DNA from: Candidatus Nomurabacteria bacterium
Lineage (GTDB): Bacteria; Patescibacteriota; Saccharimonadia; Saccharimonadales; Saccharimonadaceae
Length of the DNA: 43,163 nt
NCBI GenBank assembly: GCA_031262695.1
Contig: JAISHF010000005.1
Location: 1-43,163 of the forward strand
Direction of reading: 5' to 3'
The position numbers and the translations under genes were made by a program. The notes beneath the pieces are model-generated. The model did no database searches. It was not told where the DNA came from and saw only the letters and a list, made by a program, of their open reading frames with translations. Positions 2,938 to 41,914 of the stretch are shown piece by piece; the stretch's first letter is position 1, and every line of letters starts with the position of its first letter.

Positions 2938-4159
2938 GCATATTTTTAGCGTAATAGCGAGTGAGATAATCGCGTTTGAATGTTTGGAAGGTGTCATCTA
3001 GGAGCGATTCGCGGATTTGTTTGGTGAGGTTGACGACAAAATACTCATTATGGATGCTGGCGAGGACACCAGCAGTGAGTTCATGGGCGTGAAAGAGATG
3101 GGCGAGGTAGGCTTTGCTGTGGTGCTGGCAGGTATAGCAATTGCATTCGGGATCTATTGGCGAAAAATCATGGCGATATTTGGCGTTTTTGATGTTAATG
3201 CGGCCGTCGCGGGTGTAGAGAGCGCCGTTCCTTGCTTGTCGTGTTGGGGCGACGCAATCAAAAGTGTCGCAGCCGAATTCGGCACCGATAAAGAGGTCAC
3301 GGGGTTCGGCGCCCATACCGAGGAGGTGGCGGGGGCGGCGGCTCGGCAGAATCTGATTGACGAGTTGGAGCATTGTGTCCATACCGTCAGCGGTGAAGAC
3401 GCCGCCGATACCGAATCCGTCAAAAACTTGGCCGCTTACTTCCATTTCGGCTAAGGTTTTGGCGGATTTACGGCGGAGATCCAAGAATTTGCCACCTTGA
3501 ACGACACCAAACAAGGCTTGGTAAGGGGGTATTTTGGGTTGATTTGACAGGGGTGAGGCGGTAAAAACTTGACTTTTAGGCATAAGTGTGATATAATGGG
3601 AGTATAGGGCGGCTTGCTCACGCAGGCAACGCTCCGCCCAGGCGTGGGTTCGTTCCATGGCAATTTGCATATCTTCACGACTATTGGAGGCCGCGAGTTG
3701 GTCAAAGGCCATATGAATATCGGCGCCGATTTGCCACTGGGCTTGCATGGAAGATTCCGGAGTGATAGTGAGTTCGTGGCCGTCAAGATGCGAGCGAAAA
3801 GTAGCGCCGTTGTTGGTGATTTTGACTTCGGGGAGTGAAAAGATTTGGAAGCCGCCGCTATCGGTAAAGGTTGGCTTGGTGTGGCCAGTGAAATTATTCA
3901 GGCCGCTGGCTCTAGCGAGCAAGTCTGTGCCGGGTTGTAAAATGAGATGATAGGTGTTGGCGAGGGCGGCGTCACTGCCTAGTTCGTCTAGTTGCTGCCA
4001 AGTCAGGCCTTTGACATCGCCGAGTGTTGCGGCGGCGACAAAGGCAGGGGTGGGAATATCTCCGTGCGGGGTATGGATTGTGCCGACACGGGCAAGACCG
4101 ACTTGTTTTTCAATCGTAAAAGAAAACTCGGGGCGGTTGGCGTAAGAATTATTGGACAT
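2933..4159 (-). CDS. tgt: tRNA-guanine transglycosylase
   Basis: Exchanges G34 for a queuosine precursor in Asp, Asn, His and Tyr tRNAs. Seen: the nucleophile-region Asp in FTDSGGFQ, the VVQGG loop, the second catalytic Asp in DTFDCVAPTRQARNG, and the zinc site CNCYTC followed by a distal His. It is 408 residues against about 370-380 normally. The excess is one block of about 24 residues (LYSHYITLMPKSQVF and flank) between AERCLREQ and QALFGVVQGG. That block is the translated antisense of a promoter repeat (3569-3597). The start overlaps the end of tyrS by 11 nt. The partner Q-biosynthesis genes are not in the window. Confidence 0.95.
   Translation of the reverse strand: MSNNSYANRPEFSFTIEKQVGLARVGTIHTPHGDIPTPAFVAAATLGDVKGLTWQQLDELGSDAALANTYHLILQPGTDLLARASGLNNFTGHTKPTFTDSGGFQIFSLPEVKITNNGATFRSHLDGHELTITPESSMQAQWQIGADIHMAFDQLAASNSREDMQIAMERTHAWAERCLREQAALYSHYITLMPKSQVFTASPLSNQPKIPPYQALFGVVQGGKFLDLRRKSAKTLAEMEVSGQVFDGFGIGGVFTADGMDTMLQLVNQILPSRRPRHLLGMGAEPRDLFIGAEFGCDTFDCVAPTRQARNGALYTRDGRINIKNAKYRHDFSPIDPECNCYTCQHHSKAYLAHLFHAHELTAGVLASIHNEYFVVNLTKQIRESLLDDTFQTFKRDYLTRYYAKNML
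3563..3606 (+). repeat. Promoter-repeat copy inserted in frame in tgt
   Basis: TTGACT (3569-3574), a 17-nt spacer and TATAAT (3592-3597) lie on the strand opposite tgt. Across about 42 bp the sequence differs at only a few bases from the intergenic copy at 40665-40705, including the spacer (AGGCATAAGTGTGA). It is open in the tgt frame and accounts for the Tgt-specific insert. Confidence 0.85.
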
Positions 4160-9588: not shown

Positions 9589-9605
9589 AGCCCCCTTATG
9601 CTTCC

Positions 9606-9634
9606 ATTATATCACACTTGTGCTTATTTGTCAA
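9606..9634 (-). promoter_or_regulatory. Orphan copy of the promoter repeat, antisense to pfkB
   Basis: TTGACA, a 17-nt spacer and TATAAT on the minus strand with the family spacer (AAGCACAAGTGTGA) and the downstream GGAAGCATAAG. No minus-strand gene follows, so a transcript from it would run antisense into the 3' end of the kinase gene. Confidence 0.7.
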
Positions 9635-15999: not shown

Positions 16000-16128
16000 A
16001 AGGGGCCTCCTAATATTCACGCCCGTAGATACCTCAAAGAGGTGCTGGGGGGGGGCTTAATTGGTGCCCCACACCAGCTTATACTTACATTATATCATAC
16101 TTGTGCTTAAAAGTCAATAGTTTCGGTG
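16000..16128 (-). promoter_or_regulatory. Promoter/leader repeat, copy A
   Basis: Minus-strand TTGACT (16117-16112), 17 nt, TATAAT (16094-16089), then a leader of about 80 nt with a stem built on GCTGG..CCAGC, a C9 tract (G9 on plus, 16047-16055), a second hairpin ACCTC-TTT-GAGGT, and AGGAGG. CACCGAA lies just upstream of the -35 (16128-16122). Confidence 0.85.
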
Positions 16129-16201: not shown

Positions 16202-16591
16202 ATGAAACTAGCAAAGCAAGGCAAGATCACGCCAAACGGCGTAGTACTTGAAACGCACGAGAATTCCACCGTTGTATTCCTAACCGAGCGTGGTTTTGAT
16301 GTAGAGCTAATCAAGCCTGTTCGCACAAAAGGTGCCAAGAACGCCGACATTATCCTTGCGGGCATCGTCTGGGAAATCAAAGGTCTGTTCGGTAGTAGCA
16401 AGCGTTCCATTGCCGATCATCTCTATAAAGCCTCTCGCCAATCACCAAACATAATCTTAGACATGCGTCACTTTGGTCTGTCAAAAAGTTTCTCAATAAA
16501 AGAAATTTCCAAACAATTCAACATCCGCCGCAAGATTAAACGAATAAAAGCAATCTTTCAAGACGGCGAAACTATTGACTTTATGCGTTAG
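16202..16591 (+). CDS. Stand-alone CdiA-C-like (BECR-fold) nuclease, module 1
   Basis: 129 residues with no signal or membrane segment. The core ADIILAGIVWEIKGLFGSSKRSIADHL..KASRQSPNIILD follows the pattern of CdiA C-terminal tRNase toxin domains also found at the ends of phage head proteins (acidic residue, then WEIK, then a Lys and a QS-N-hydrophobic-D strand). Likely catalytic candidates are Asp49, Glu58 and Lys60. No immunity gene is evident. TAAAAT stands 6 nt before ATG (leaderless). Codon use is less GCG/GGC-biased than neighbours, consistent with transfer. It is a diverged paralogue of 40766-41152. Target and role (toxin, defence, effector) are unknown. Confidence 0.7.
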   Translation: MKLAKQGKITPNGVVLETHENSTVVFLTERGFDVELIKPVRTKGAKNADIILAGIVWEIKGLFGSSKRSIADHLYKASRQSPNIILDMRHFGLSKSFSIKEISKQFNIRRKIKRIKAIFQDGETIDFMR

Positions 16592-16603
16592 CTTTGCTAT
16601 AAT
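16575..16603 (+). promoter_or_regulatory. Consensus promoter overlapping the nuclease 1 stop codon
   Basis: TTGACT, a 17-nt spacer and TATAAT, with TTGACT inside the last codons. The preceding CGAAACTATTGACTTT matches the promoter repeat family. It fires into the hairpin at 16613-16651. Confidence 0.75.
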
Positions 16604-16612
16604 AGTGTTAAC

Positions 16613-16651
16613 GAGATCGTCGCTTGCCGCGAAGCGGCAAGCCGCGGTCTC
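16613..16651 (+). terminator. Long hairpin after nuclease 1 (terminator or hairpin RNA)
   Basis: An 18-bp stem with one mismatch and two G-U pairs, loop GAA, followed by TTTT. Since the promoter start point falls around 16610, the product would be little more than this hairpin (about 45 nt). Confidence 0.75.
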
Positions 16652-16688
16652 TTTTGAGGTTAAATCGAGTATTTTGCCAAACAATTTG

Positions 16689-26904: not shown

Positions 26905-27048
26905 TGCCAAAACTATTGACTTTTAAGCACAAGTGTGATATAATGGAGATGTTATGGAGGTAATAACCGCCATACGAACCAATAACAGTTAGTTAAAACC
27001 CAGTTTAGGGTAATTTTTGCTGCCCAAAAGGGCGAAAAGGAGATTCTT
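26905..27048 (+). promoter_or_regulatory. Promoter repeat copy E with a different leader
   Basis: TGCCAAA (26905-26911), TTGACT (26916-26921), 17-nt spacer and TATAAT (26939-26944) match copies B-D almost base for base. The 100-nt leader is unrelated to theirs. It has a five-codon ORF (ATG at 26950), an AACCC..GGGTAA element, a GCCC-AAAA-GGGC hairpin, and AAGGAG before the ATG at 27049. Confidence 0.8.
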
Positions 27049-40563: not shown

Positions 40564-40711
40564 AAGTGGTTCCTCCTAAAAAATTTACGCACCCTGTTTA
40601 CCAAGTTCCCGATGCACAAGCAAAGGGGCTGGGGGGGGGTGATTATTTGCCCACACCCAGCTTATACTTCCATTATATCACACTTATGCCTAAAAGTCAA
40701 TAGTTTCGGCA
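40564..40711 (-). promoter_or_regulatory. Promoter/leader repeat, copy C
   Basis: TGCCGAA (40711-40705), TTGACT (40700-40695), 17-nt spacer, TATAAT (40677-40672), then a leader with CTGGGTGTGGG / C9-CCAG stem (C9 at 40639-40631). The ACCTC/GAGGT hairpin is missing. Ends in AGGAGG. Confidence 0.88.
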
Positions 40712-40728: not shown

Positions 40729-40758
40729 TTGTCTTAGTAGCGGTGGATGTGTTATATT
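40729..40758 (+). promoter_or_regulatory. Promoter of nuclease 2
   Basis: TTGTCT, 18-nt spacer, TATATT, 7 nt before ATG. It is divergent from copy C, with only 17 bp between the Spo0A-box-like site and this -35. Confidence 0.6.
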
Positions 40759-40765
40759 AAAAGGC

Positions 40766-41152
40766 ATGGATAAGATTCGCATTCCAGATGGCTACAAGCC
40801 AGAGTTGCATGAAATTGAAGTGGCGAAAATATTGGTGGGGCGTTTTGATTGTGAGATTGAGTTTTTGCGGCCATCTAATTCTTATAAAGTTTCTACGCCT
40901 GACATTGAGATGAGAGGTCAGCTTTGGGAGATTAAAAGCCCGCTTGGTTGCGCTAAGCATACTATTCAAGAGCAATTTAAGCGTTCGTCTAAACAGTCTT
41001 GCAATATTATTATAGATGGCCAGCGAAGCAAGCGGTCAGATGAGGATCTCGTAAAAGATATACAAAAAGAGATAAAATTGCATAAAACAAAACGCAGGGT
41101 GCTGTTTATTACGAAAGATAAAAAAGTGCTTGACATGGGTAAACGAGGTTGA
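40766..41152 (+). CDS. Stand-alone CdiA-C-like (BECR-fold) nuclease, module 2
   Basis: 128 residues from the ATG at 40766 (a longer frame would start inside the promoter). The core TPDIEMRGQLWEIKSPLGCAKHTIQEQFKRSSKQSCNIIID fits the CdiA C-terminal RNase pattern better than the module 1 copy. Candidate catalytic residues are Asp46, Glu55, Lys57 and Lys64. The C-terminal KRRVLFITKDKKVLDM strand closes the fold. No secretion signal or fused delivery domain. The two copies share D-I-x5-WEIK and the QS-N-I-I-x-D strand but differ elsewhere, so they are old paralogues or separate acquisitions. A consensus promoter overlaps its last codons. Confidence 0.72.
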   Translation: MDKIRIPDGYKPELHEIEVAKILVGRFDCEIEFLRPSNSYKVSTPDIEMRGQLWEIKSPLGCAKHTIQEQFKRSSKQSCNIIIDGQRSKRSDEDLVKDIQKEIKLHKTKRRVLFITKDKKVLDMGKRG

Positions 41153-41158
41153 TATAAT
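41130..41158 (+). promoter_or_regulatory. Consensus promoter overlapping the nuclease 2 stop codon
   Basis: TTGACA, exactly 17 nt, TATAAT: both boxes are perfect. TTGACA is read as codons of the nuclease. Confidence 0.85.
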
Positions 41159-41164
41159 ACAGAT

Positions 41165-41248
41165 GTAGAAAGACCAGGCAGCCCTGATTGGGCAGTCGGA
41201 GGAGTATTCTACAAAATAATACAAAAGCCTCCGTTTTGGAGGTTTTTT
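41165..41248 (+). ncRNA. Candidate small structured RNA downstream of nuclease 2
   Basis: About 84 nt from the predicted start to a terminator (CCTCC-GTTTT-GGAGG then T6, 41228-41248). TGTAGAA (41164-41170) pairs with TTCTACA (41207-41213) to close a domain that contains GAC..GTC and GCCC-TGATT-GGGC. No ORF. Not recognised as SRP, 6S, tmRNA or RNase P. Confidence 0.65.
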
Positions 41249-41771: not shown

Positions 41772-41914
41772 AGTGAAATCCTCCTTTTATAAAAAGTGCA
41801 CGCCCACTTGCATAATTACCTCGTAGAGGTGCTGGGGGGGGGTGATTATTTGTCCACACCCAGCTTATATTTCCATTATATCACACTCGTGCTTAAAAGT
41901 CAATAGTTTTGGCA
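41772..41914 (-). promoter_or_regulatory. Promoter/leader repeat, copy D
   Basis: TGCCAAA (41914-41908), TTGACT (41903-41898), 17-nt spacer, TATAAT (41880-41875), a leader with GCTGGG/CCCAGC stem, C9 tract (41842-41834), ACCTC-TAC-GAGGT hairpin, GTGGGCGTG box shared with copies A and B, and AAAGGAGG. Confidence 0.88.

Follow-up and report, generated by a model that had tools for sequence, protein, structure and literature searches.

A CdiA_C-family nuclease gene paired with a small structured RNA in Saccharibacteria: a probable RNA-neutralised toxin

Introduction

Passages of PMC5086642 describe the type III toxin-antitoxin systems (ToxIN, CptIN and TenpIN) as small nuclease toxins encoded beside a short, structured non-coding RNA, of which there are several families. 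RNA repeats are placed upstream of the toxin there, the two share a promoter with a terminator between them, and the RNAs form pseudoknots. According to part of PMC10511110, AvcID is also labelled type III, although its toxin AvcD is a deoxycytidylate deaminase and not ToxN-like; the RNA AvcI inhibits AvcD directly. Here we analyse a CdiA_C-family (PF18451) nuclease-like gene and the small structured RNA directly behind it in a stretch of 43,163 nt (referred to as the window) of Candidatus Nomurabacteria bacterium, contig JAISHF010000005.1. The genome to which the window belongs comprises 652 kb in five contigs.

As in type III systems, a structured small RNA gene adjoins a toxin-like nuclease gene at this locus. 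Unlike in type III systems, the RNA follows the toxin gene, whose last codons house the RNA's own promoter, or is inverted in some relatives, and usually consists of one unit instead of tandem repeats. The fold also differs from that of ToxN, CptN and TenpN, the whole nuclease chain being assigned to PD-(D/E)XK. AvcID provides a precedent for the type III label with another toxin, but its toxin chemistry differs from that of a nuclease. The toxin fold itself is shared with the CdiA-CT/CdiI pairs of contact-dependent growth inhibition (CDI). In CDI, however, the domain is the last part of a huge exported protein, and the protein CdiI neutralises it, whereas here it stands alone, no immunity-protein gene recurs beside it and the sole recurring neighbour is the RNA.

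Results

The nuclease and its RNA in the window

The protein encoded at the window locus matches PF18451 with 39.1 bits (gathering cut-off 26.6). Residues Glu16, Asp46, Glu55, Lys57 and Gln77 are invariant or nearly so among 29 relatives; Asp46 and the Glu55-x-Lys57 pair are fully invariant. A structure model calculated from 12 sequences had a mean pLDDT of 89.5. Its best match among solved structures in Foldseek was chain A of PDB-entry 4g6v, a CDI toxin domain (E-value 2.2e-5, TM 0.70). An alignment of the two with VIA-align resulted in a Z-score of 13.5 for 117 residues at 2.9 Å, spanning residues 2–126, and the next entry scored 8.0. In a profile search of PDB sequences 4g6v was the sole entry below 1e-3; the absence of other folds from the structure lists was not counted as evidence. 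Judged by this model, the protein is a PD-(D/E)XK fold protein of the CdiA_C family. The 4g6v protein is described in part of PMC9086364 as a toxin of the PD-(D/E)XK type which cleaves tRNA-Ala in its acceptor stem, and by analogy the window nuclease is likely a tRNase.

CdiA_C-like domains also sit at the end of phage head maturation proteases (PHROG 13257). Each of the six nucleases compared with these proteins matches their C-terminal part but lacks the head-protein part.

Directly after the stop codon of the nuclease gene (41150–41152) follows the -10 box of a promoter, which ends 6 nt past the stop and, together with its -35 box, agrees with the consensus at all 12 positions. The -35 box overlaps the nuclease codons for Leu-Asp-Met. 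An earlier note on this DNA had reported this promoter, and we found it at the same position with the same sequence. The window contains two exact matches to the promoter pattern and 13 with at most one mismatch; shuffled sequences gave a mean of 0.16 with one mismatch allowed. The predicted RNA of about 84 nt is closed by a stem in which TGTAGAA (41164–41170) pairs with TTCTACA (41207–41213). This stem and the terminator behind it are located as in the earlier note, and positions 41160–41250 fold with a z-score of -4.07, which was equalled by none of 200 shuffles. The probable promoter of the nuclease gene itself is separated from the ATG by 7 nt, so that the nuclease mRNA may be leaderless. 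For the coordinates of all features see Table 1.

Recurrence of the pair in related genomes

In the window's family, where relatives carry the label Saccharibacteria, 46 of 151 genomes contain PF18451, compared to none of 14 control genomes. The 0.65-Mb genome of the window alone carries 12 such genes. From 117 listed matches we used 111, the other six being below the curated cut-off. They are stand-alone genes for proteins of about 125–150 residues without a fused export or delivery domain, and they occupy many unrelated sites, each with an RNA.

The promoter at the stop codon is a common property of these genes. Four of the 111 were left out because they lacked a stop codon or sufficient sequence downstream; among the remaining 107, 89 scored at least 9 out of 12, compared to 14 of 123 other open reading frames (ORFs) in the same stretches. 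The codons that contain the promoter are biased accordingly: in the terminal Val/Ile/Leu-Asp/Glu motif the Val, Ile or Leu codon ends in TT in 75 of 81 genes, compared to 840 of 2775 such codons at other sites in the genes, and the Asp codon at the -35 site is GAC in 49 of 56 cases (219 of 608 elsewhere). This bias argues for selection on the DNA and not on the protein alone. The RNA promoter could be compared with the highest-scoring promoter upstream of the nuclease start for 101 genes; with start codons assumed, it scored higher in 88, equal in 4 and lower in 9. A stronger RNA promoter is as expected if the RNA would have to be in excess.

No neighbour protein recurs beside the nuclease genes. 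In flanks of a few hundred nucleotides no ORF family was shared by more than 3 of the 110 loci, and a protein antitoxin was rejected on this basis. At two loci (L083 and L086) the ORF before the nuclease resembles the end of what we take to be a type I restriction-modification methylase subunit. Some of the nuclease-RNA units may thus sit in defence islands. Altogether, about 100 recurrences in related genomes suggest a large unrecognised group of RNA-held toxins.

The class A RNA is a structured RNA family

A BLAST search with the RNA region of the window, referred to as class A, yielded three copies in the window's genome. One further copy (C4:81067-81186) also lies directly 3' of a CdiA_C gene, and the other (C1:69620-69694) stands alone. 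A covariance model built from these three copies had 17 matches in 11 of the 151 family genomes, and a second model built from the 17 matches had 31 in 17 genomes. According to a comparison of positions, 20 of the 31 RNAs are directly behind a PF18451 match.

In an alignment of 47 class A relatives 95.0% of the cells are paired and 14 of the 16 pairs are altered on both sides, the alignment being fitted to the structure of the model, which favours that structure. None of 500 shuffles reached the covariation score, and sliding the structure by 1–3 columns reduced the pairing to about 31–41%. In the conserved core an outer stem, free in sequence, is followed by an internal loop in which GACC faces AGGAGUA, and then by an inner hairpin. 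Because of the three copies in the window's genome and the covariation among the 47 relatives, the RNA is far beyond what chance would produce: class A is a real RNA family. When the window and 20 loci that represent several RNA classes were searched against Rfam, only tRNA and rRNA exceeded the gathering threshold. Assignment to a known family was rejected; the weak matches stem mostly from the terminator hairpin.

One solo class A RNA in the window's own genome (L005, 2131–2230) has a -10 box and a terminator, with no nuclease within 900 nt upstream. Essentially no nuclease remnants were detected within 900 nt upstream of such orphan RNAs, apart from one match of 14 residues in L018.

RNA classes follow the nucleases

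Behind the nuclease genes of the family, the -10 box is followed by hairpins about 45–60 nt long, of at least six types. We grouped the RNAs by eye into classes A to G. Automatic single-linkage clustering was rejected, as it merged 86 of 95 RNAs into one cluster, probably through their U-tracts. The RNAs have a median fold z-score of -2.9 (n = 95), compared to -0.17 for other 3' flanks (n = 117). Covariation was also observed in two further classes: 7 of 8 pairs are altered on both sides in class E (16 rows), and in class D this applies to 7 of 15 pairs (9 rows). One of the underlying alignments (A7) includes a misaligned row, L122, that was counted. In several classes the hairpin doubles as the terminator and ends in a U-tract.

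The class of an RNA tracks the clade of its nuclease. Across 85 loci, RNA similarity correlates with nuclease identity (r = 0.55), while the highest value among 999 permutations was 0.07. The stretch further downstream of the same loci shows no rise of similarity with nuclease identity. We conclude from this difference that the RNA and the nuclease travel and change together.

In one nuclease clade (L068 twice, L074, L077, L083 and L086) the RNA lies behind the gene on the opposite strand, with its own promoter. The core of the inverted RNAs in L083 and L086, GCAGUGUUGGAU...ACAC, is shared with forward copies, for example L087. The six inverted cases lean on this shared core more than on the promoter score, and the stretch searched in reverse was wider than the forward one. 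The inversion of the same RNA class in a single clade indicates that the RNA is a separate gene.

As a rule there is a single RNA, and tandem units are rare. Two class D units follow each other in L063, and L015 has a degenerate second class A unit after the first (1501–1610), which resembles tandem antitoxin arrays. Two distant PF18451 loci elsewhere in the phylum (L157 and L160) show a possible opposite-strand promoter and hairpin behind the gene, with letters that are similar by eye; possibly these hairpins belong to a further RNA class.

Occurrence outside the family

In a draw of 332 genomes from the phylum, 12 contained PF18451. The two that come from other families within the order (L154 and L155) have the same nuclease-RNA layout. 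A pattern scan for class A RNAs in 84,980 species yielded 46 stretches and a viral scan two more. Of these 48 we accepted 18, namely 17 with at least six outer-stem pairs together with L209, which has an interrupted stem. The remaining 30 have at most four outer-stem pairs and were rejected as probable chance matches.

Four of the accepted stretches are in records labelled Saccharibacteria or Nomurabacteria. The other 14 are in metagenome-assembled genomes (MAGs) labelled Oscillospiraceae, Clostridiales, Clostridiales Family XIII or Synergistaceae. A nuclease gene is located directly upstream of 11 of the 18. When whole genomes were searched for 13 of the 14 MAG loci, PF18451 was found in 7, one of them with 7 copies. 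A class A RNA accompanies 13 of the 15 nuclease genes of these Bacillota-labelled MAGs (a split gene was counted once). PF18451 is otherwise rare there, with 3 of 148 genomes of one order, and this rarity makes transfer between phyla the likely origin of the pairs. Binning errors may also account for them. A plasmid collection contained no protein match to the nucleases of the window or of L180 at 1e-3, and a phage collection none to the L180 nuclease. Among viral contigs there was no relative by protein; the two class A pattern matches found there are both without the outer stem.

Further features of the window

The window carries a second nuclease-RNA module, whose RNA belongs to a class other than A (Table 1). 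In addition, a 30-nt promoter sequence including its spacer, TTGACTTTTAAGCACAAGTGTGATATAATG, is present in six copies with at most three mismatches (0 expected), at 3569–3598 (+), 9605–9634 (-), 16088–16117 (-), 26916–26945 (+), 40671–40700 (-) and 41874–41903 (-). The common spacers of these copies suggest a shared regulator or a duplicated promoter.

Table 1. Coordinates of the nuclease-RNA modules in the window.
Feature	Position	Strand	Basis
CdiA_C (PF18451) nuclease-like gene, 128 residues	40766–41152	+	Pfam, conserved residues, structure match
Promoter of the RNA, TTGACA-17-TATAAT, 12/12 consensus (-35 box 41130–41135, -10 box 41153–41158)	41130–41158	+	sequence
Class A structured RNA with terminator, about 84 nt, predicted	41164–41248	+	fold, covariation
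Conserved class A core with covarying outer stem, CC/GG pair and inner hairpin; internal loops GACC and AGGAGUA nearly invariant	41164–41213	+	
Intrinsic terminator, GCCTCC/GGAGG followed by T6	~41224–41248	+	sequence and fold
Probable promoter of the nuclease gene, TTGTCT-18-TATATT, 9/12	40729–40758	+	
Second CdiA_C nuclease gene, 129 residues	16202–16591	+	
Promoter of the second module's RNA, 11/12 consensus, -35 box within the last codons of the gene	16575–16603	+	
Self-terminating hairpin RNA of the second module, class other than A	16608–16655	+	

Discussion

Based on these results we consider it probable that the nuclease and the RNA constitute a two-part toxin-RNA antitoxin unit, type III-like in its action but with another toxin fold and another gene order. 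We infer neutralisation of the nuclease by the RNA from the comparative evidence, namely because the nuclease has a toxin fold and stands alone, each gene has one RNA, the RNA has the stronger promoter, no other neighbour recurs, and some RNAs occur without a toxin. The earlier note had left open whether the RNA is an antitoxin, a regulator of the nuclease or a substrate. The comparison, including the linked similarity of RNA and nuclease and the inverted copies, points to a dedicated partner RNA of the nuclease, for which the role of antitoxin fits best of the three, and regulation by pairing with the nuclease's own mRNA gave no signal.

We propose the following mechanism. The CdiA_C-family nuclease, a stand-alone PD-(D/E)XK protein and probably a tRNase, would be expressed from a weak, perhaps leaderless promoter, while the short structured RNA would be transcribed from the stronger promoter embedded in the last codons of the nuclease gene. 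The cognate nuclease would bind the class-specific internal loops of the RNA hairpin and be held inactive as long as the RNA is in excess. If the supply of RNA stops, for instance upon gene loss, phage takeover or stress, the free nuclease would cut tRNA and growth would stop.

Several observations weigh against this proposal. Eleven of the 31 class A RNAs have no adjoining PF18451 match, which also fits an RNA with a job of its own. The consensus folds are nested hairpins without the pseudoknot that is a hallmark of type III, a feature which the programs used cannot predict. In the fold and strand analysis, for which one further gene was dropped, 11 of 106 genes had no promoter by score on either strand, though some of them still have a recognisable RNA. 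The nuclease activity is assigned through homology, and further toxins of the PD-(D/E)XK fold are DNases according to part of PMC9086364.

The RNA might instead serve as cofactor or sensor in an active or triggerable ribonucleoprotein with the nuclease, for example a phage-defence effector that senses through the RNA. Strict pairing and linked similarity would suit any obligate ribonucleoprotein, and so would the conserved internal loops. Still, we regard this as unlikely: orphan RNAs without a nuclease are more easily explained by an antitoxin, a PADLOC search for defence systems found no match, and in classes other than A the hairpin ends in the U-tract, which leaves no single-stranded guide. 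An RNA-guided nuclease was rejected for the related reason that most RNA classes have no single-stranded part to act as a guide. The chances are lower again for a cis-acting or antisense regulator, where the RNA would base-pair with the nuclease mRNA as in type I systems or would simply be a 3' untranslated region or terminator element. Its place directly behind the gene and the double use of the hairpin as terminator in several classes are in line with such a function. However, the RNA has its own promoter and is inverted in one clade, and its complementarity to the toxin mRNA (positions -30 to +60) is not raised, with 6 of 87 cases in the best 5% and a mean rank of 0.46.

Injected CDI toxin domains have this fold, phage head proteins end in the same domain, and the repertoire per genome is large and diverse as in polymorphic toxins. 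The nuclease could therefore be a weapon that is exported into host or rival cells, with the RNA shielding the producer in place of the CDI immunity protein. This appears very unlikely to us, as these are single-domain proteins of about 130 residues that lack a fused export or delivery domain, and no neighbouring gene recurs beside them. That the RNA is a housekeeping or unrelated small RNA which happens to lie behind these genes is the most improbable of the explanations. It would accommodate the class A RNAs that are not beside a PF18451 match, but hardly an RNA at each of many unrelated nuclease sites, a class that tracks the nuclease clade, or the occurrence of the same pair in the Bacillota-labelled genomes.

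A more speculative extension, which we think unlikely, casts the nucleases as weapons or defence effectors that Saccharibacteria keep in check with a repertoire of orthogonal RNA immunity genes. A single genome of 0.65 Mb would then hold as many as a dozen toxin/RNA pairs belonging to different RNA classes, in which the RNA would take the role of CdiI and the nuclease and the RNA loops would diversify as matched keys and locks. We found no published description of these nuclease-RNA pairs among the open-access papers searched, which exclude bioRxiv, so that an earlier account is possible. The toxin-RNA reading is directly testable in E. coli.

If the reading is true, one toxin fold would be kept in check by a protein in CDI but by an RNA here. 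Since each of the many covarying RNA classes has its own nuclease clade, they would offer a natural system in which to study joint changes of protein and RNA specificity. Little was found in print on the toxin-antitoxin systems of this bacterial group, and the pairs would represent a group of PD-(D/E)XK nuclease toxins neutralised by RNA, much expanded in reduced, host-dependent bacteria.
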